Assembly (NCBI GenBank): GCA_039636865.1
Contig: CP144172.1
Location: 1,116,001 to 1,180,000 of the forward strand
Reading direction: 5' to 3'
DNA from: Dermatophilaceae bacterium Sec6.4
GTDB taxonomy: Bacteria > Actinomycetota > Actinomycetes > Actinomycetales > Dermatophilaceae
DNA: 64,000 nucleotides
The notes below the pieces were generated by a model. That model was given only the letters and a program-made list of their open reading frames with translations, ran no database searches and had not been told where the DNA came from. Positions 21,674 to 30,814 of this stretch are shown here, one piece after another. A program made the position numbers and the translations under genes. Numbering within the stretch: position 1 is the first letter of the stretch; the number at the start of each line of letters is the position of its first letter.

Positions 21674-22585
21674 TCAGGACAGGACGCGGCGGCGGAAGTT
21701 GCGCAGGCCGATGGTCAGGAACACCACGGCGAACCCAAGAATTACCGGGTAGATCGCGAAGAGTGTCATGTGTGGTGCCTGGGTGAACGCCGCCCGCATT
21801 CCTTCGTTCACGTAGATCAGCGGATTGATCAGGACGAGGGTCTGCAGCCAGTGGAAGCCGCCGATCGTCACTGGCGACAGCGTGGTCCAGGAATAGTAGG
21901 TGCCGCCGAGGAAAGTGATCGGCAGGATGATGAACCCGAACATCAGGCCGATGTTGCGTGGTTGGAAACTGGTTCCGAGAACCAGGCCGAGGCCGGCCAT
22001 CGCGACACAGGCCAGCGGTACCAAGGTCAGAATGACGGCCCAGTGCAGGTGCAGGTGGGCCTGCACCCCGTTGGCGTGCACGACCGATGCGATCGGCAGG
22101 ACGATGATCGCGGAGATGATCCCCTGCACTGCGCCGGACAGCACTTTCGCAATGGCCACCAGCCAGATGGGGCAGGGCGCCTGAACGCGGTCCTCGATCT
22201 CGCGGGTGTAGCCGAACTCCTGGGCCATCGACAGGGCAATCGACTGCACTCCCTGGAACATGATCGAGATGCCGACCACCCCGGGTACGAGCACGGTCGC
22301 GAAGTCCGACTGGCCGCCCTTACCTTTGCCGCCGCCGATGCCCTGGCCGATCTTGGGAAACACGTAGAGGAATACAAAACACAGCAGAAAAGGCTGGATG
22401 ATCGTGCGAAGGACGAACAGCCCCCAGTCCTTGCGCAGCACGGTGACGTCGCGCAGCATCAAAGCCCCGAGTGCGGTCCACGCTGCGCGCGGGACACTTC
22501 GGGTCGGAGCATCGGAGATGAACGCTCTGTCTGCGGGCACTGCGGGCACTGCGGGCACTGCGGCCGGTGCTGTGGGGCTGCTCAT
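21674..22585 (-). CDS. ABC-2 type export permease (DrrB-like)
   Basis: 303 residues. Six hydrophobic segments follow a soluble N-terminus, including TIIQPFLLCFVFLYVFP, VLVPGVVGISIMFQG, VLPIASVVHANG and LMFGFIILPITFLGGTYY, characteristic of ABC-2 permeases of the daunorubicin-resistance DrrB type. An internal Gly/Lys-rich loop (GQGIGGGKGKGG) lies after the first helix. The ATG overlaps the stop of the ATPase gene by 4 bp, so the pair is translationally coupled. The N-terminus is encoded partly by a 9-bp tandem repeat (VPA units). Together with the ATPase it forms a small-molecule exporter; its position next to the sunscreen operon makes MAA export a testable idea, not a known fact. Confidence 0.88.
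   Translation of the reverse strand: MSSPTAPAAVPAVPAVPADRAFISDAPTRSVPRAAWTALGALMLRDVTVLRKDWGLFVLRTIIQPFLLCFVFLYVFPKIGQGIGGGKGKGGQSDFATVLVPGVVGISIMFQGVQSIALSMAQEFGYTREIEDRVQAPCPIWLVAIAKVLSGAVQGIISAIIVLPIASVVHANGVQAHLHLHWAVILTLVPLACVAMAGLGLVLGTSFQPRNIGLMFGFIILPITFLGGTYYSWTTLSPVTIGGFHWLQTLVLINPLIYVNEGMRAAFTQAPHMTLFAIYPVILGFAVVFLTIGLRNFRRRVLS
22531..22566. repeat. Four 9-bp tandem repeats in the permease gene
   Basis: CTGCGGGCA is repeated three times exactly and a fourth time imperfectly, giving a VPA repeat in the permease N-terminal tail. Unit gain or loss would keep frame, so it changes tail length rather than switching the gene off. Confidence 0.85.
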
Positions 22586-23565
22586 TCGCGGAGTTCCTTT
22601 CCGGTCAGGTCGATGAAAACGGTCTCCAGGCTGGGTTCGGACACCGACAGATCCAGGATGTCGTAGCCGGCCTTCTCAGCGGCCAGGACGATCCGGGGCA
22701 CGAGGCGGTCGCTTCCGTCGATGTGCAGCTCCAGAGATTCCCCACGCACCCGATGCTCGGCAACCCCGTTCAGTTCCGCAGCCAGCAGATCGCCCAGTCT
22801 TTCCTGATCACCGGCTGCGCGGATGGTGACCACGGTATCGGCGCCGACCCGTTTCTTCAGTTCGGCGGGAGTGCCCAACGCGAGAACAGTGCCGTGATCC
22901 ATGATGGCGACCCGATCGCACAACTGGTCGGCTTCTTCCATGTAGTGGGTGGTCAGCAGAATCGTCTGACCGTCATCGTTCAGCTCCCGCAGTTTCTCCC
23001 ACAGCGCAAGGCGACTCTGGGGATCCAGCCCCGCTGTGGGCTCATCCAGGAAAAGCACCGCCGGGCGGTGGAAGATCGCCCGCGCAACCATCAGCCGTTG
23101 CGCCAGGCCTCCTGACAGGGTGAAGACGGACCGGTCGGCCCATTTGGTGAGCTGGAAGTCCGCCAGCAGTTCATCAGCCGTGGAGCGCGCGGACCTGGCG
23201 CTGTAGCCGAACAGGCGACCATGGAAGTAGAGGTTCTCCCGCACGGTCAATGCCCGGTCCAGGGTGTTCTGCTGGGAGACGATCCCGGTGACCTGCTTGG
23301 CCAGCGACGGTTGCTTGACGATGTCGATGCCGGCGATGAAGCCTCGTCCGGATGTGGGGATGACCCTGGTCGTCAGCATCCCTGCCGTGGTGGTCTTGCC
23401 CGCTCCGTTGGGTCCGAGCAATCCGAAGATCTCGCCCGTCGGCACGTCCAGATCCAGCGCCTGCACGGCGGGAGCATCGGCGCCGGAGTAGGTCTTCGCC
23501 AGCGATTCGGTGTGGATCGCCCACTCACCCTGCGGGCTGTGCCGATGATGTCTCGTCGTGTCCAT
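22582..23565 (-). CDS. ABC exporter ATP-binding protein (DrrA-like)
   Basis: 327 residues. Walker A is GPNGAGKTT, the Q-loop region is TGIVSQQNTLDRALT, the signature is LSGGLAQRLMVARA, Walker B is VLFLDEPTAGLD and the switch His is in TTHYMEEAD. A C-terminal extension of about 90 residues, ending SEPSLETVFIDLTG, is typical of DrrA-type subunits. The glutamine normally after LSGG is replaced by Leu-Ala, a mild departure. It is the middle gene of a tetR / ATPase / permease operon on the minus strand (40 bp after tetR, 4-bp overlap with the permease). It powers export of an unknown substrate. Confidence 0.93.
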   Translation of the reverse strand: MDTTRHHRHSPQGEWAIHTESLAKTYSGADAPAVQALDLDVPTGEIFGLLGPNGAGKTTTAGMLTTRVIPTSGRGFIAGIDIVKQPSLAKQVTGIVSQQNTLDRALTVRENLYFHGRLFGYSARSARSTADELLADFQLTKWADRSVFTLSGGLAQRLMVARAIFHRPAVLFLDEPTAGLDPQSRLALWEKLRELNDDGQTILLTTHYMEEADQLCDRVAIMDHGTVLALGTPAELKKRVGADTVVTIRAAGDQERLGDLLAAELNGVAEHRVRGESLELHIDGSDRLVPRIVLAAEKAGYDILDLSVSEPSLETVFIDLTGKELRE

Positions 23566-23605: not shown

Positions 23606-24184
23606 TCATTCGGCATGTGCAATGCCGAGTAGGGCGATGTCGACGGCTGCGGCGATGAGTGCGTCGCTGGGCAGCGTGTCATGCATCATCGCGGCATTCG
23701 AGACGAAACCGGAAAGCATCAGTGCAGCGGCTTCGAATCGTTCGCCGTCGGCGACGGTCGCCAGCATGGTCCGCAACGGAGCCTCACCGTCCCGCACCAT
23801 TTCGTCCCGAATGACCGCCATCCGCGGATCGGAGGACGCGAGCTCGGCAAGCACCGCGAGCAGTTGATCCAGGTGGTAGTCCTCGATGGCAGCGCGGAAC
23901 ATCGTCAGTTCAGCGATCAGGTCATTGCGCAGATTGCCCGTCGCCGCGTGGTGCGGCATCTGCCGCAACCAGGCGAAGGCTTCGTACAGCAGATCTGACC
24001 TGGTGGGCCAATGTTTGTAGACGGTCGCCCGCGAATAGCCGGCGACTCGCGCCACATGGTTGTGGGTAACCGCTTCGCGGCCTTCATCCACCAGTACCTG
24101 CAGGGTGGTGGTGAGGATGTCGTTACGGGTCCGGACGACCCGGGCATCAACTGGTTCCTCGGTCGGGGAGGCGGTCAGTGCCAC
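23606..24184 (-). CDS. TetR-family transcriptional regulator
   Basis: About 192 residues. The N-terminal helix-turn-helix reads ILTTTLQVLVDEGREAVTHN, then VARVAGYSRATVYKHWPTR and SDLLYEAF; the rest is an alpha-helical ligand domain. The GTG at 24184 is preferred because AGGAGG ends 8 bases upstream; a GTG at 24193 would sit inside that site. It opens the operon that continues into the DrrAB-like exporter and is divergent from the HAD/mys operon across a 165-bp gap containing a strong palindrome. TetR proteins usually repress their own operon and neighbours until a small ligand binds. The ligand here could be an MAA, an intermediate or an unrelated drug. Confidence 0.9.
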   Translation of the reverse strand: MALTASPTEEPVDARVVRTRNDILTTTLQVLVDEGREAVTHNHVARVAGYSRATVYKHWPTRSDLLYEAFAWLRQMPHHAATGNLRNDLIAELTMFRAAIEDYHLDQLLAVLAELASSDPRMAVIRDEMVRDGEAPLRTMLATVADGERFEAAALMLSGFVSNAAMMHDTLPSDALIAAAVDIALLGIAHAE

Positions 24185-24203
24185 GCCGGTCACCTCCTGG
24201 TTG

Positions 24204-24247
24204 CCTAATGGACGGATTGTCCACTAGCTTTGTTCTAGTCCATTAGG
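24204..24247. promoter_or_regulatory. Palindromic operator candidate in tetR / mys divergent region
   Basis: CCTAATGGAC (24204-24213) and GTCCATTAGG (24238-24247) are perfect inverted 10-mers. Nested at 24209-24223 is TGGAC-GGATT-GTCCA, a compact palindrome of typical TetR-operator size. The half-site GTCCAYTAG therefore occurs more than once. It lies between the divergent starts and could control both operons. The binding protein is inferred. Confidence 0.65.
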
Positions 24248-24278
24248 ACCCCCACTGCCAAAACCGGTGTGGGGGTCC
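24246..24278 (+). other. GC-rich 10-bp hairpin in the leader of the mys operon
   Basis: GGACCCCCAC (24246-24255) and GTGGGGGTCC (24269-24278) form a perfect 10-bp stem with a 13-nt loop, about 70 bp before the first ATG of the operon. No U-run follows. It may be an attenuator or RNA stability element, or a terminator for minus-strand transcription. Confidence 0.6.
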
Positions 24279-24349
24279 TGGCGCAAATCCGGAAGCCTCT
24301 GCGGTCGAAGGTCGGTGGATGTCGGTCCAGATCAACCTAGGAGCCCCAC

Positions 24350-25018
24350 ATGTCAGCTGTTCTGTTCGGTTCGATCAGCACGATCGCCGACACCTCCGAG
24401 TTGCAGCGCGAAGCCTTCAACAAGGCCTTCGTCGCGCATGACGTGAACTGGGTCTGGGATCGCTCGGACTACCTCGCGATGCTCGACAAGAGCGGAGGCC
24501 GCGACCGGATCGCTGCCTACGCGCAATCGCGTGGTGAGTCCGTCGACGCGGACGCCATCCACCGGACGAAGTCCGAGATCTTTCAACGTGACCTCGCTGA
24601 GTCGAACATCGTTCCCCGCGATGACGTCGCCCAGACGATTCAGGACGCGGTGGACGCCGGGATGTCGGTCGGTCTGGTGACCACGACGTCGCGCCGGAAC
24701 ATTTCCGCGATGTTGGACGCACTGCACCCGCAGATCCGGGTCGACCAGTTCGACATCATCGTCGACGTCACCGACGTGGACCAGCGAAAGCCGGCCGGTG
24801 ATGCGTACGAGTTCGCACTGACCAGCCTGCATGTGAAATCCGACGACTGCGTCGCGATCGAGGACAACATCGAGGGCGTCCGGGCGGCGCAGGCTGCCGG
24901 AATAACCTGCGTGGCTTTCCCCAATGCAAACACCTCCGGTCAGGACTTCGCCGCAGCTGACCGACGCGTCCATCAGGTGCAGTTCGACGAGCTCGCCTCA
25001 CTGATCACCGCCAACTGA
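24350..25018 (+). CDS. HAD-superfamily (CbbY/beta-phosphoglucomutase-like) protein lacking the motif I aspartates
   Basis: 222 residues with the overall CbbY/beta-phosphoglucomutase layout. Motif I, normally F-D-x-D-G-T, here reads [15 protein letters not shown]: the nucleophile Asp is Gly7 and the acid/base Asp is Ile9. The sequence after it ([13 protein letters not shown]) is normal. Motif II TTTS is at 111-114, motif III Lys at 147 (QRKPAGDAY) and motif IV Glu171-Asp172 (AIEDNIEGV). The substrate and Mg scaffold is therefore largely kept while the catalytic nucleophile is gone, so phosphatase or mutase activity is unlikely. AGGAG lies 7 bases before the ATG. It is the first gene of the MAA operon, 32 bp before mysA. 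It may be a partner or binding protein for a sugar phosphate such as sedoheptulose 7-phosphate. Confidence 0.85.
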
Positions 25019-25050
25019 GTTACCAAGAACCTCCGAGACAGGACCTGAAG

Positions 25051-26274
25051 ATGCCCGACCCGACCGCTTCCGTCGAGGCCACCGAGACCTCGTTCCATGT
25101 CCAGGCGTACGAGAAGATCGAATACTCCCTTACCTACGTCGATGGCGTATTTGCTGTCGAGAACAGCCATCTCGCCGACGCATATCGCGCGTGGGGCCGC
25201 ACCCTGATGGTGATCGACGAGACGGTTCTGGCGCTCTACCGCGAGAAGATCGAGGCGTACTTCGAGCACCACGAGATTGCGCTCACCATTTTCGCCATCC
25301 GCATTGCGGAGCCGGACAAGTCGTTGACCACCCTGGAGAAGATCATCGACGCGTTCGGAGCCTTCGGGCTCGTGCGTAAGGAGCCGGTCCTGGTCGTCGG
25401 GGGAGGCCTCACGACCGATGTCGCCGGCCTGGCCTGCGCAACGTTCCGGCGTGCGACGAATTACATCCGCATCCCGACCACGTTGATCGGGCTGATCGAC
25501 GCCAGCGTTGCCATCAAGGTTGCGGTCAACCACGGTCATTACAAGAACCGGCTCGGCGCCTTCCACGCATCCCAACAGGTGATTCTGGACTTCTCCTTTT
25601 TGCAGACGCTGCCGATCGATCAGGTCCGCAACGGGATGGCCGAGATGCTCAAGATCGCGGTGGTCGGCAACGCCAGCATCTTCAATCTGATGGAGAAGTA
25701 CGGCGAGGATCTGCTGACCACCCGCTTCGGGCACCTGGACGGCACGCCCGAGCTGCGTGAGATCGCCCACCGGGTGACCTACGACGCTATCGACACCATG
25801 CTCAGGCTCGAGGTGCCGAATCTGCAGGAGCTGGACCTGGACCGGGTCATCGCCTTCGGTCACACCTGGAGTCCCACCTTGGAGCTGACCCCCGACGTGC
25901 CCTACTTCCACGGGCACGCGGTCAATATTGATATGGCCTTCTCCACCACCCTCGCCGAGCGACGGGGAATGATCAGCGTCAGCGAACGTGACCGCATCTT
26001 CTGGTTGATGAGCAACATCGGCCTCACCCTGGACAGTCCTTACCTCACGCCGGAGCTGCTGCAGACCGGCACCGAGTCGATCGTGCAGACGCGCGACGGG
26101 TTGCTACGAGCTGCAGTGCCGAACCCGATCGGTAGCTGCGCCTTCATCAACGACCTTCCGGAGGCGGAGATGCGCGAGACGCTGCAGGCCCACCGCGAGA
26201 CGGCGCGCAAGTACCCGCGCGAGGGTCAGGGCGAGGACATGTTCATCGACTCCGCACCGGTTCACTCGCGGTGA
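25051..26274 (+). CDS. mysA: 2-demethyl-4-deoxygadusol synthase (DDGS), first MAA enzyme
   Basis: 407 residues, a sugar-phosphate cyclase of the dehydroquinate-synthase superfamily. Members convert sedoheptulose 7-phosphate with NAD to 2-demethyl-4-deoxygadusol. The NAD/metal region [12 protein letters not shown] is at 116-126 and the zinc region includes [11 protein letters not shown]. The closely related EEVS enzymes are separated from DDGS by two residues; in the Anabaena DDGS these are, as I recall the literature, Ala268 and Thr347. Counting codons here gives Ala268 (IAFGHTWSP) and Thr347 (VQTRDG) at exactly those positions. That supports DDGS over a cyclitol-antibiotic EEVS. mysB starts 4 bp after the stop. 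Confidence 0.93.
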
Positions 26275-26278
26275 CCCG

Positions 26279-27139
26279 ATGACCGAACCAGCTATCTGGG
26301 TCAGCCCGATGCCGAGGCCCGTGACGCCGGTGGCAATCGCCGGTCACGAGCTGTCGGCGCTGGTGCGGGATCTGGCGGCCGACACGTCCCTGGATGACAG
26401 CGTCCGGGAGCGGTTGGCCCGATGTCGCGATCTCGTGGTGGGTCTGGACCCTTACCTCGAGGCGTGTACGACGCCGGAGTCACCGGACCTGAGTCGCCTC
26501 GCCGCCCGTACCCGAGAGGAGTCCTGGGCCGATCGAGCAGGCAGCTCTGCCGTTGGTGGGGGCTGCGGTGTTCTGGAGCAGGAGATGCTCTCGGGGCATG
26601 TCGAGGGTCAGTTCCTGAAGATGCTCGTGCATGCTACGGGCGCCTCGCGGGTGCTGGAGATCGGCATGTTCACCGGATACTCGGCGCTCGCAATGGCCGA
26701 GGCGATGGGGCCGGACGGGTCGATCGTGGCGTGCGAGATCGATGCGTACGCCGCCGACATCGCGCGGGAGTGTTTTGCGGACTCCACCGCCGGCTACAAG
26801 GTGGATGTGCGGGTCGCCCCCGCCCTGGAGACGCTGGCGTCCTTGTCGCAGTCCGGCGAGCAGTTCGAGTTGGTGTTCATCGACGCCGACAAAGCCGGCT
26901 ACGGGGAGTACCTGGCGGCTGTGCTGGATTCGGATCTACTGACACCGCAAGGCCTGATCTGCGTCGACAACACGCTGATGCAGGGCGAGCCGTGGCGGAC
27001 AGGGAAGCCGGGGCAGCCCAGTGGCAACGGCGCGGCAATCGCCAGGTTCAACGAGATGGTGGCTTCTGACGCCCGCATCGAGCAGGTGCTGTTGCCGCTG
27101 CGAGACGGACTGACCTTGATTCGCAGGACCGATACCTGA
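26279..27139 (+). CDS. mysB: O-methyltransferase making 4-deoxygadusol
   Basis: 286 residues. A COMT-type SAM-dependent O-methyltransferase with motif I VLEIGMFTGYSALAMAEA, the acidic beta-2 end VACEIDAYAADIA, metal-binding FIDADKAGY and the VDNTLMQGEPW segment. MAA O-methyltransferases methylate 2-demethyl-4-deoxygadusol to 4-deoxygadusol. The first ~95 residues (YLEACTTPESPDLSRL) are an MAA-type N-terminal extension. It lies directly after mysA with a 4-bp gap, consistent with coupled translation. A 47-bp spacer leads to the dioxygenase gene. Confidence 0.92.
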   Translation: MTEPAIWVSPMPRPVTPVAIAGHELSALVRDLAADTSLDDSVRERLARCRDLVVGLDPYLEACTTPESPDLSRLAARTREESWADRAGSSAVGGGCGVLEQEMLSGHVEGQFLKMLVHATGASRVLEIGMFTGYSALAMAEAMGPDGSIVACEIDAYAADIARECFADSTAGYKVDVRVAPALETLASLSQSGEQFELVFIDADKAGYGEYLAAVLDSDLLTPQGLICVDNTLMQGEPWRTGKPGQPSGNGAAIARFNEMVASDARIEQVLLPLRDGLTLIRRTDT

Positions 27140-27186
27140 GCAGCCGCGCCGGGTGACCGGCCGTTGCCACCAAGAGGAGAGCAGAC

Positions 27187-27972
27187 ATGCAGACCACTGC
27201 ACTGGACCCGATCGGAATGCAGGTACGGGGCCTGGATCTCGCAACCATAGATGCCGACACCGTCGGCCAGTTGCAGGGCCTGTTGGCCCGGCACGGTGTT
27301 CTGGTCTTCCCGGATCAGGACATCAGCGACACTGTCTTCACGCGCTTTCTGCGTTCGTTCGGGACCATGACGTTCTCGGTGGGCGAGACCCCGGTCGAGG
27401 GCCATGAGGACCTCAACCTGATCAGCAATGTCGGTCGCAAGGTGCCGCCCAAAAGTGAATTCCACGTCGACACCAGTTACGTGAGCAGGCCCCCGGCCTA
27501 CACGGCACTGCGTGCGGTACAGATTCCCAGCGAGGGCGGCCAGACACTCTTCTCCAACCAGTACCGCGCCTACGAGACGCTTCCGGACGACGTCAAAGGT
27601 GATCTGCGGGACCGTACGATCACCCACGTGGTGACCGGGCTGGAACTTGGCGAGGACGAGGAGCGCTCGGCGCAGCATCCTATCTTCCGCCAGCACCCCG
27701 TCACCGGTGACGTGTCGCTGTATCTGACAACTGCCAAACGCTGTGAATCAGTCAGCGGCATGGGCCAGGAACAGTCGAGGGAAATTGTGGACTATCTGCT
27801 GGCGCACTCCACTGCCGATGACAACCTCTACCGACACTCCTGGGCGGCCGGAGATGTTGTCATGTGGGACAACGGATGCGTGCTGCATCGTGCGGACCAT
27901 TCCGGGGTGGTGGGTGACCGGGTCATGCACCGCGGAATGGTCGCGGATTACCCGCAGTCGGTGCCCGCGTGA
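27187..27972 (+). CDS. TauD/TfdA-family Fe(II)/2-oxoglutarate dioxygenase in MAA operon
   Basis: 261 residues. The iron-binding triad is complete: His93 and Asp95 in EFHVDTSY and His234 in WDNGCVLHRADHSG; Arg245 or Arg249 (RVMHRG) is placed to hold 2-oxoglutarate. The family hydroxylates or oxidatively trims small substrates. The gene lies between mysB and mysC, with a GGAG site before its ATG, and its stop overlaps the GTG of mysC (GTGA), so it is coupled to the pathway. The known cyanobacterial dioxygenase MysH that forms palythines belongs, to my knowledge, to the phytanoyl-CoA family; this is a different branch. A tailoring step on 4-deoxygadusol, mycosporine-glycine or the final MAA is inferred. 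Confidence 0.88.
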   Translation: MQTTALDPIGMQVRGLDLATIDADTVGQLQGLLARHGVLVFPDQDISDTVFTRFLRSFGTMTFSVGETPVEGHEDLNLISNVGRKVPPKSEFHVDTSYVSRPPAYTALRAVQIPSEGGQTLFSNQYRAYETLPDDVKGDLRDRTITHVVTGLELGEDEERSAQHPIFRQHPVTGDVSLYLTTAKRCESVSGMGQEQSREIVDYLLAHSTADDNLYRHSWAAGDVVMWDNGCVLHRADHSGVVGDRVMHRGMVADYPQSVPA

Positions 27973-29294
27973 TCGGTGCCGCCGTTCGCTCCACCCTGAA
28001 GACGACGGCAGCGCTCGCCGTACTGCAGGTCGCGCTGCCGCTCAACCTGCTCTGGACAGCGGGGGCGTTGGTCCGACCACGGTCGATGCAGGCAGTTCTG
28101 CCTGAGGCCAGCGAGCGTAGAACCATCCTGATCAGCGGCGGCAAGATGACCAAAGCACTTGCGCTGGCCCGCGCATTCCACAACGCAGGCCATCGTGTGG
28201 TCCTGGTGGAGGCAGCCAAATACCGGTTCACCGGGCACCGCTTTTCTTTCGCCGTAGCAAAGTTCTACACGGTGCCTGCGCCGACCGATCCCCGGTACGC
28301 CGATGCCCTGCTGCAGATCGTGCGCGCTGAGAAGGTGGATGTCTACATCCCGGTGTGTGCGCCGGCCGCCTCGTATCCCGATGCAATGGCAGGTGAGCTC
28401 CTCGCGCCGTACTGCGAGGTGGTGCACGGCACTCCGGCGCAGATCATGGCGCTGGACGACAAATTCGAGTTCTCAGCGATGGCGCGTGAGGCGGGGGTCC
28501 GGGTGCCCGAGTGTTTCCGGATCACCTCCGAGCAACAGCTGCGTGACTTCGACTTCGGATCGGGGCAGACGTCCTACGTGCTGAAGAATCTCGCGTACGA
28601 CCCGGTCAATCGACTCGACCTGACGCGGTTGCCGACGCCGGATGAGAGCACGCTGGACGCTTTCCTGGCAGGCAAAACGATCTCGGCGGAGAATCCGTGG
28701 ATCCTGCAGGAGTTCATTCCTGGGCGGGAGTACTGCACGCACGGAACGGTACGCGCCGGGCGGGTACAGGTGTACTGCTGCTGTCCTTCCTCCGCGTTCC
28801 AGATCAACTACGAATCGGTGGACAAACCTCGCATCCAGGAGTGGGTGACGACGTTCGTGGCGCACCACGAACTGACCGGGCAGATGTCGTTCGACTTCAT
28901 TGAATCCTCGCGGGACGGATCGATCTACGCGATCGAGTGCAACCCGCGCACCCACTCGGCGATCACGATGTTCTACGACCAGAGTGAGCAGCTGGCCGGC
29001 GCCTACCTGCAGGACGGCCACCCGCTGGTCACACCCACGCCTGCCAGCAAGCCGACGTACTGGATCTATCACGAGGTATGGCGGCTGCTCACCGGATACG
29101 GTCCGGTGCGGGAGCGGCTGCGCGTCATCGCCGAGGGCAAGGACGCGATCTTCGACGTAGCTGATCCGATGCCCTTCCTGCTGGTGCATCACCTGCAGAT
29201 CCCCTCGCTGCTGTTGACGAACCTGGTGACCTGCAAGGAATGGATCAAGGTGGACTTCAATATCGGCAAAATCGTGCAGGCGGCGGGGGACTGA
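27969..29294 (+). CDS. mysC: ATP-grasp ligase forming mycosporine-glycine
   Basis: 441 residues. An N-terminal hydrophobic segment (about residues 14-34, ALAVLQVALPLNLLWTAGAL) precedes an ATP-grasp enzyme with ILISGGKMTKALALARAF, LQEFIPGREYCTHGTV and the metal-binding AIECNPRTHSAITMF. MysC proteins condense glycine onto 4-deoxygadusol using ATP. The hydrophobic N-terminus is a shared trait of MysC-type proteins and suggests membrane association. The GTG start overlaps the dioxygenase stop. Length is close to characterised homologues. mysD follows after 4 bp. Confidence 0.92.
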   Translation: MIGAAVRSTLKTTAALAVLQVALPLNLLWTAGALVRPRSMQAVLPEASERRTILISGGKMTKALALARAFHNAGHRVVLVEAAKYRFTGHRFSFAVAKFYTVPAPTDPRYADALLQIVRAEKVDVYIPVCAPAASYPDAMAGELLAPYCEVVHGTPAQIMALDDKFEFSAMAREAGVRVPECFRITSEQQLRDFDFGSGQTSYVLKNLAYDPVNRLDLTRLPTPDESTLDAFLAGKTISAENPWILQEFIPGREYCTHGTVRAGRVQVYCCCPSSAFQINYESVDKPRIQEWVTTFVAHHELTGQMSFDFIESSRDGSIYAIECNPRTHSAITMFYDQSEQLAGAYLQDGHPLVTPTPASKPTYWIYHEVWRLLTGYGPVRERLRVIAEGKDAIFDVADPMPFLLVHHLQIPSLLLTNLVTCKEWIKVDFNIGKIVQAAGD

Positions 29295-29298
29295 GGCC

Positions 29299-30321
29299 AT
29301 GACCACGCGTGTACTGCACCTGGCCGGCTCACCGGTGAGCGATTTCTATGCCGACCTGTCGCGGCTCTATGCCTCGGATGCGCTCGCTGCGACTGCCGAT
29401 CCGGCGCGTTACGAGATGGTCCCCGCATACGTGCTGCCGGGCGGGCAGTGGTGTTTCCCGACGGACCTGAGCCACCAGGCGATCGACGACGCCCCGCGGA
29501 TGACGGTCGGCGCGGCGGTGCAGCGGCTGACCCAGTCGGGGTTGGATGCTGTGCTCCCGCAGCTGTTCTGTATCCCCGGTATGACCGCGTACCGGGGACT
29601 CCTGGAAGTGATCGGGTTGCCCTATCTCGGCAATCGGCCCGACACGATGGCCCTGGGTGCCCACAAGGCGCGCGCCCGGGCAGTAGTGGCAGCGGCAGGT
29701 GTGCGGGTGCCCGAGGGGGAGTCGCTGCGGGTCGGTGACCACCCGACGCTGACTCCGCCCGTCGTGGTCAAGCCTGTCGATGCCGACAATTCGCTCGGAA
29801 TCAGCCTGGTCCGCCGCGACAGCGAGTACGACGCGGCACTGGCACTGGCGTTCGGGTACTCCGACACGGTGCTGGTGGAGGCCTATGTCGAGCTGGGCAG
29901 GGAAGTGCGTGCCGGCATCTTCGAGCTGGACGGTGAACTCGTGCCGCTGCCGCTGGAGGAATACAACGTCGATGCGGATCGCAAGCCGATCCGCGACCAC
30001 GCCGACAAGATCGGATCGGCCGACGACGGAGACCTGCGGCTGATGGCCAAAGATGTCGAGCACGCCTGGATACTGCCGACCGACGACCCGGCGACGCAAC
30101 CCGTGTGGGCGGCAGCTCTGGCCTGTCACCAGGCAATGGGTGCCCGTCACTACAGCCTTTTCGACTTTCGGATCGATCCGCTTGGCCGACCGTTCTTCCT
30201 GGAAGCCAGCCTCTACTGCTCGTTCGCGAACTCCAGCGTGCTCGCCGTGATGGCCAAAGCCGCTGGTATCGAGGTATCCGAGCTATTTGCCATCACCCTC
30301 GCGCAGACGCTGAATTCCTGA
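29299..30321 (+). CDS. mysD: D-Ala-D-Ala ligase-like MAA ligase (second amino acid)
   Basis: 340 residues. An ATP-grasp enzyme of the D-Ala-D-Ala ligase group with VVVKPVDADNSLGISLV, the EEYNVDADRK loop and the conserved MysD C-terminal block FDFRIDPLGRPFFLEA followed by SLYCSFANSSV. MysD enzymes attach a second amino acid (Ser, Thr and others) to mycosporine-glycine, giving shinorine, porphyra-334 or similar. No mysE-type NRPS is present, so this is the ligase route. It is too divergent to be the cell-wall Ddl. It is the last gene of the operon; an inverted repeat follows at 30358-30415. Confidence 0.92.
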   Translation: MTTRVLHLAGSPVSDFYADLSRLYASDALAATADPARYEMVPAYVLPGGQWCFPTDLSHQAIDDAPRMTVGAAVQRLTQSGLDAVLPQLFCIPGMTAYRGLLEVIGLPYLGNRPDTMALGAHKARARAVVAAAGVRVPEGESLRVGDHPTLTPPVVVKPVDADNSLGISLVRRDSEYDAALALAFGYSDTVLVEAYVELGREVRAGIFELDGELVPLPLEEYNVDADRKPIRDHADKIGSADDGDLRLMAKDVEHAWILPTDDPATQPVWAAALACHQAMGARHYSLFDFRIDPLGRPFFLEASLYCSFANSSVLAVMAKAAGIEVSELFAITLAQTLNS

Positions 30322-30415: not shown

Positions 30416-30472
30416 CAGTGGCAGCGCGCCCGGCGGGATGCGCCAGGTCGCCGTCGTTGCTGCAGGCTCGAT

Positions 30473-30501
30473 TTGGAGCGAGCCGCGCCCTCTGGCAGAC
30501 T
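30473..30501 (+). promoter_or_regulatory. Predicted promoter of the S10 operon
   Basis: TTGGAG and CAGACT are separated by 17 bp. The -35 is within ATTTGG as in the str, infA and rplM promoters. The -10 is one base off TAGACT, which rplM has exactly. It lies 314 bp upstream of rpsJ. Confidence 0.55.
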
Positions 30502-30814
30502 GCTCAAGTTGCTTGACGCGTGGGTGTCGATCAGCACAGGCCAGTTCGCACGTTCTCCGGAGCGTGCGAGGGCAGGTGCCTCGCTCCCGCCGCCTTTCAC
30601 TCCTGAGGTTCGTGGCCCAATGGCTGGGAACCGGTAGTGCAGGGAAGCGCAGGCTGGGTCCATCCGGATCCGAGAACACCCCCGGGTTAGAAGTACCGTT
30701 CAGCGCGTCGATCCGGCGTGAGGGCGACACACCCGAGCGCGGGGGTCGGAGCAGTCCGGCGGACTACAAGTTCTTTTCACAGGCAAGATGACGGCGAGAG
30801 AGAGACGCACTCAG
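30502..30814 (+). other. Long untranslated S10 operon leader
   Basis: About 310 bp between the predicted promoter and rpsJ, with no credible coding frame. A long leader is usual for S10 operons, where ribosomal protein feedback can act. I could not fold a specific L4-type structure by eye. Confidence 0.45.

Follow-up and report, generated by a model that had tools for sequence, protein, structure and literature searches.

The window analysed here, a 64,000-nucleotide stretch of contig CP144172.1 of Dermatophilaceae bacterium Sec6.4, contains a six-gene operon that, judged from its sequence, is a complete mycosporine-like amino acid (MAA) operon, because its MysA is of the desmethyl-4-deoxygadusol synthase (DDGS) type and because MysA, MysB, MysC and MysD match the mysABCD proteins of Nostoc sp. 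HK-01 one for one. Taken as a whole, we consider it likely that this operon makes MAAs, that its TauD-family dioxygenase would convert them to palythines, that its haloacid dehalogenase (HAD)-fold protein would bind a phosphosugar without hydrolyzing it and that a TetR-family regulator would control transcription at a palindrome. The operon is of a known kind, and the weight that an earlier note on this DNA placed on its location was overdone; the parts worth following are the lost catalytic aspartates of the HAD protein and the TetR palindrome. The host is a soil-type bacterium in the genus of Allobranchiibius, its nearest named relative being Allobranchiibius sp. CTAmp26 of the same genus (locus L026, genome G001).

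Operon organization, core pathway and dioxygenase

All six open reading frames (ORFs) that the earlier note had read as an operon are present at 24350-30321 on the forward strand, in the order HAD, mysA, mysB, TauD, mysC and mysD:

24350-25018, forward strand: HAD-fold protein, CbbY-like, predicted pseudo-phosphatase with G7 and I9 in place of the catalytic aspartates
25051-26274, forward strand: mysA, DDGS
26279-27139, forward strand: mysB, O-methyltransferase (Methyltransf_3, 3e-47)
27187-27972, forward strand: TauD/TfdA-family Fe(II)/2-oxoglutarate dioxygenase, proposed to form palythines (PF02668, 9e-52)
27969-29294, forward strand: mysC, ATP-grasp ligase with a GTG start (NF005315, 9e-127)
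29299-30321, forward strand: mysD, D-Ala-D-Ala ligase-like ligase (PF07478, 3e-14)

The junctions had been described as gaps of 4 bp or overlaps, which is true of three of the five (mysA-mysB and mysC-mysD, 4 bp each; TauD-mysC, a 4 bp overlap) and not of HAD-mysA (32 bp) or mysB-TauD (47 bp). Similarly, mysA, mysB, mysC and mysD do follow pathway order relative to one another, but the TauD gene is inserted between mysB and mysC. Five of the proteins have Pfam or PDB matches of 3e-14 to 1e-172 and MysC matches its NCBIfam model, and MysA, MysB, MysC and MysD are 63, 54, 53 and 57% identical, respectively, to their counterparts in the Nostoc sp. HK-01 cluster; because of these matches and identities, the genes are not chance ORFs.

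The claim that the operon is a complete MAA operon is borne out by the type of its MysA, which is nearer to structure 5tpr (1e-172), which we take to be the Anabaena DDGS, than to 4p53 (2e-74), presumably the non-MAA cyclase ValA, a 2-epi-5-epi-valiolone synthase (EEVS). E254, A268 and T347 of MysA are kept in all 18 MysA sequences aligned and are, we assume, the residues that mark DDGS, where ValA has L, D and H. That fingerprint sites exist among sugar phosphate cyclases, and this alone, is confirmed by the accessible part of PMC4426668. Linked to this DDGS-type sugar phosphate cyclase are the O-methyltransferase, the ATP-grasp ligase and the D-Ala ligase-like enzyme that make up an MAA cluster. 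MysA converts sedoheptulose-7-phosphate to desmethyl-4-deoxygadusol, which MysB methylates to 4-deoxygadusol; MysC adds glycine to form mycosporine-glycine, and MysD adds a second amino acid to form shinorine-type MAAs, which would be the products of MysA to MysD in the host strain. At one related locus (L037, 10625-10730), mysB was found neither between mysA and mysC nor elsewhere in the 20 kb stretch examined, the other five genes being there, and at another (L044, 8487-9686, forward strand) a look-alike of a TnpB-type transposon protein, identified by eye, lies between mysA and mysB.

The iron site of the TauD protein is intact. H93, D95 and H234, which we take to be the HxD...H metal triad, and R245, presumably the 2-oxoglutarate-binding arginine, do not vary in any of the 14 sequences aligned, drawn from 22 TauD-bearing loci with L031 and L088-L094 left out. 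No other PF02668 protein was found in its genome. The position of the TauD gene varies with the locus: it stands between mysB and mysC, downstream of mysD or upstream of HAD. At L031 (7913-8640, reverse strand) the gene is split over two frames, by breakage or by a sequencing error. The operon's protein has TauD as its sole Pfam match at E 1e-3 and is not of the MysH type, MysH belonging to the PhyH family (PMC10510106, accessible part). The TauD protein probably makes palythine-type from shinorine-type MAAs: it would hydroxylate the glycine carbon, after which glyoxylate would be lost. That the operon yields only imino-MAAs such as shinorine, with TauD performing some other modification, is rather doubtful. 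The sequence holds no substrate information and the protein has no significant match to its PhyH-family counterpart in the Nostoc cluster, which leaves room for such a role, but in S. coelicolor the Rhodococcus fascians D188 operon gave shinorine, palythine and palythine-serine (conference abstract cited in the accessible text of PMC11888242), and MysI, a cyanobacterial TauD-family enzyme, is proposed to form palythine (PMC10510106, accessible part).

Among the 18 loci found through mysA (the window included), both HAD and TauD are present at 15 (L031 with its broken TauD gene among them), HAD alone at one (L039), neither at two (L044 and L045) and TauD alone at none, absence referring to the stretch around mysA; at seven further loci, which were chosen through HAD and are not independent for it, both are present in all seven. 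The earlier note had taken these extra genes to be unusual. Their co-occurrence at 15 of 18 loci and a 2025 preprint, the accessible text of which describes HAD and TauD as conserved components of MAA clusters in actinobacteria (PMC11888242), led us to reject them as a novelty: HAD and TauD as additional genes are already known.

A HAD-fold protein without its catalytic aspartates

In all 51 mysA-linked copies of the HAD protein, motif FDxDGT is replaced by FGSIST, in which the nucleophile aspartate is glycine (G7) and the acid/base aspartate is isoleucine (I9), while T113, K147, E171 and D172, the phosphate- and metal-binding residues, are kept in 51 of 51. We take these four to be the motif II Thr/Ser, the motif III Lys and the motif IV acidic pair. 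The protein therefore has the fold with cap and the motif II-IV residues of an active HAD phosphatase and lacks the motif I aspartate pair. With both aspartates gone, the HAD phosphatase mechanism is closed to it, and we regard the protein as a conserved pseudo-phosphatase, for which these residues make HAD phosphatase chemistry a very unlikely mode of action; an ordinary HAD phosphatase was rejected on the Gly and Ile in every mysA-linked copy. As the loss extends to every mysA-linked copy, the protein probably has another job, and phosphatase assays on this "HAD phosphatase" would be aimed at the wrong thing, whereas a role as a binding protein or partner can be tested directly. No description of the lost aspartates was found in the accessible parts of the literature on MAA clusters.

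It is improbable that the protein nonetheless has phosphatase activity through an unusual motif I, dephosphorylating, for instance, a pathway intermediate or by-product. The HAD_2 family match, the CbbY fold and the retained Thr, Lys and Glu-Asp residues would suit such an enzyme, and loss of the acid/base aspartate is not telling by itself, since 4 of the 12 other HAD_2 proteins of the genome (the operon copy and its paralogue excluded; judged by eye) lack it as well. Both substitutions, however, occur together in every mysA-linked copy, the nucleophile is kept in 12 of those 12 proteins (again by eye), and two distant homologues with no mysA link retain FDxDG.

A second pseudo-HAD is encoded in the same genome (L109, 9425-10081, reverse strand; G000:C2:722921-723580). 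It is 64% identical to the operon copy, of which it is the sister (support 0.942), and is flanked by DUF1989 and arginine deiminase-like genes; no mys gene match was found in the 20 kb stretch around it.

We tentatively propose that a HAD of the CbbY lineage, which lost both aspartates in a common ancestor, was recruited by actinobacterial MAA operons to bind sedoheptulose-7-phosphate or a pathway intermediate and so feeds or gates MysA. The protein would bind a phosphorylated ketose, most likely sedoheptulose-7-phosphate, without hydrolysis and would act with or on MysA. Its gene is directly ahead of mysA at 51 of 51 loci, and at two of them the genes abut or share about 2 bases. If the proposal is true, the MAA pathway gains its own grip on a metabolite central to the pentose-phosphate pathway, and the protein fills a non-catalytic HAD role of a new kind in natural-product biosynthesis.

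Several points weigh against this proposal. The HAD-mysA order is only indirect evidence for a partnership, and the ratio of nonsynonymous to synonymous substitution rates (dN/dS) of HAD, 0.498 in the one distant pair compared (L024/L042), is the highest among the six genes. HAD is absent from the stretches around mysA at L044 and L045, from the Nostoc HK-01 stretch and, according to the accessible text of PMC11888242, from cyanobacterial clusters; because some MAA clusters lack it, it is dispensable for the core pathway. The joint presence of HAD and TauD at 15 of the 18 mysA-found loci also fits a role in the TauD step. A partnership with the TauD dioxygenase or a later step, rather than with MysA, is favored by the absence of any locus with TauD alone, but HAD is always beside mysA while TauD occupies three different places, and L039 has HAD with no TauD in the stretch examined; we judge this partnership unlikely.

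Transcriptional control and genomic site

Upstream of the HAD gene are two further features:

23606-24193, reverse strand: divergent TetR-family regulator (TetR_N, 3e-8)
24205-24227, no strand: putative TetR operator, palindrome CTAATGGACGGATTGTCCACTAG

A TetR homologue recurs upstream of HAD at 25 of the 51 loci (window included), divergent at 24 and co-directional at one (L055), and L045, which is without HAD, also bears a TetR gene. The palindrome T[GA][AG]AC-N5-GT[CT][CT]A recurs upstream of HAD at 14 of the 25 loci with TetR and at none of the 26 without it (Fisher p 3.4e-6, a value that ignores shared ancestry; some of the 14 palindromes are identical). A search of the 3.79 Mb genome that tolerated up to one mismatch gave a single hit for the pattern and none for its reversed control. 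A TetR gene together with a palindrome found once in this genome points to a local switch, and operon transcription is probably under the divergent TetR protein, which would act, presumably by repression, at the putative operator. Against this, the TetR gene is absent at 26 of 51 loci, and the palindrome, as searched, at 11 of the 25 with TetR. The accessible literature on MAA clusters yielded no description of a TetR gene, and the gene and palindrome suggest a means of switching such clusters on. A GC-rich hairpin without a T run lies between the putative operator and HAD (24247-24279); neither of the other two genomes of the genus showed one in that position, both observations being by eye.

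The operon begins 8.3 kb past the end of the tuf ORF (16049) and ends 466 or 493 bp ahead of rpsJ (start at 30788 or 30815, depending on the start codon), in agreement with the earlier note, and more ribosomal protein genes follow rpsJ; tuf and the ribosomal genes were named by eye. Between tuf and the operon, the forward strand carries an aminotransferase-like gene (by eye), a kinase/pyrophosphorylase gene (PF03618) and a phosphoenolpyruvate (PEP) synthase-like gene, and the reverse strand an ABC-2 exporter pair and the TetR gene. Ahead of rpsJ is one more feature:

30460-30790, forward strand: genus-conserved stretch before rpsJ, separate from the operon (three-genome alignment; extent by eye)

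The earlier note held that the ribosomal neighbors may favor strong expression. That the operon belongs to the ribosomal transcription region and gains from it in this way we find scarcely credible. It is on the same strand as rpsJ, less than 0.5 kb upstream, and no terminator-like site was found between mysD and rpsJ, but opposite-strand genes part it from tuf, it has its own TetR gene and likely operator, and the stretch ahead of rpsJ shows separate conservation in all three genomes of the genus; in genome G027, moreover, the operon is far from rpsJ. We rejected the expression gain on the first three grounds. Because of the separately conserved stretch, the ribosomal operon seems, from the alignment, to have its own start. 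A sigma-70 promoter scan that took in this stretch gave no sites, and an Rfam search gave a single match, below its gathering score.

The exporter pair (21674-23565, reverse strand) lies directly behind the TetR gene here and is not TetR-adjacent in either of the other genomes, two in number, of the genus. It was rejected as part of the cluster, since at none of the 23 loci examined (L022 and L026 being one genome) does a homologue sit immediately behind the TetR gene; at four of these (L023, L036, L091 and L093), ABC ATPases 25-34% identical lie farther from it.

In three genomes of the genus, the operon is between tuf and rpsJ and adjoins the TetR gene and PEP synthase, whereas in G027, of another genus, mysA and rpsJ are 0.95 Mb apart; the contig of a fifth genome with a match (G121) is too short for placing the operon relative to rpsJ. 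Of 186 genomes of the family, 5, belonging to 2 of its 53 genera, gave a match at E 1e-80 or better, as did 11 of 394 class-sample genomes (one of them, G542, just 40% identical) and 5 of 396 order-sample genomes, each count taking in the host's own genome; a scan of contigs of named genomes gave four loci, one with the operon. The tuf-rpsJ distance was measurable in 49 of 58 genomes searched (own included). A short spacer, which the earlier note had called usual, is so in the other families sampled (at most 1.5 kb in 13 of 19 genomes) but not in this one, where 27 genomes outside the genus have a median of 5.0 kb, more than 10 kb in 8 and at most 1.5 kb in 3. Across 30 family genomes the interval runs from 0.4 to 22 kb and is a recurrent home for extra genes. 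The location is thus shared by the genus and not by G027, but its special status falls away: as the interval is expandable throughout the family, the insertion site is better read as a family habit than as a special device. A tree of MysA, MysC and MysD places the genus with L042 (another genus) and L089 (another family) with support of 0.964, L024 (the genus of L042) being just outside (support 0.111), a pattern that would fit horizontal movement of the operon.

Comparison with known systems

The operon adds to the known sunscreen clusters of actinobacteria, in a genus with isolates from stone surfaces (PMC8928780 and PMC9670885, accessible parts). The HAD protein departs from the CbbY xylulose-1,5-bisphosphate phosphatase, which has a catalytic Asp pair where it has Gly and Ile. 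The cluster on Nostoc sp. HK-01 plasmid AP018319 likewise has mysA, mysB, mysC and mysD in order. Unlike the operon, its stretch gave no match to HAD or TauD at E 1e-3, and its dioxygenase, of the PhyH family (MysH type), is encoded on the opposite strand between the ligase genes mysC and mysD. The use of TauD in the operon and of PhyH in Nostoc is in keeping with an independent recruitment of oxygenases to the same proposed step. As far as the accessible text of PMC11888242 goes, no HAD or TauD is reported for cyanobacterial clusters. MysI of the cyanobacterial mysFIE clusters, likened here by its description, shares protein family and proposed reaction type with TauD, but its neighbors are mysF and mysE, neither of which is in the operon (PMC10510106, accessible part); searches for a cyanobacterial MysI sequence gave none. 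In the accessible text of PMC11888242, the lost HAD aspartates, the TetR gene and the operator were not found described for actinobacterial clusters. By that same text, the clusters of Pseudonocardia alni and R. fascians D188 have the same six gene families as the operon, which differs from them by its position between tuf and rpsJ.
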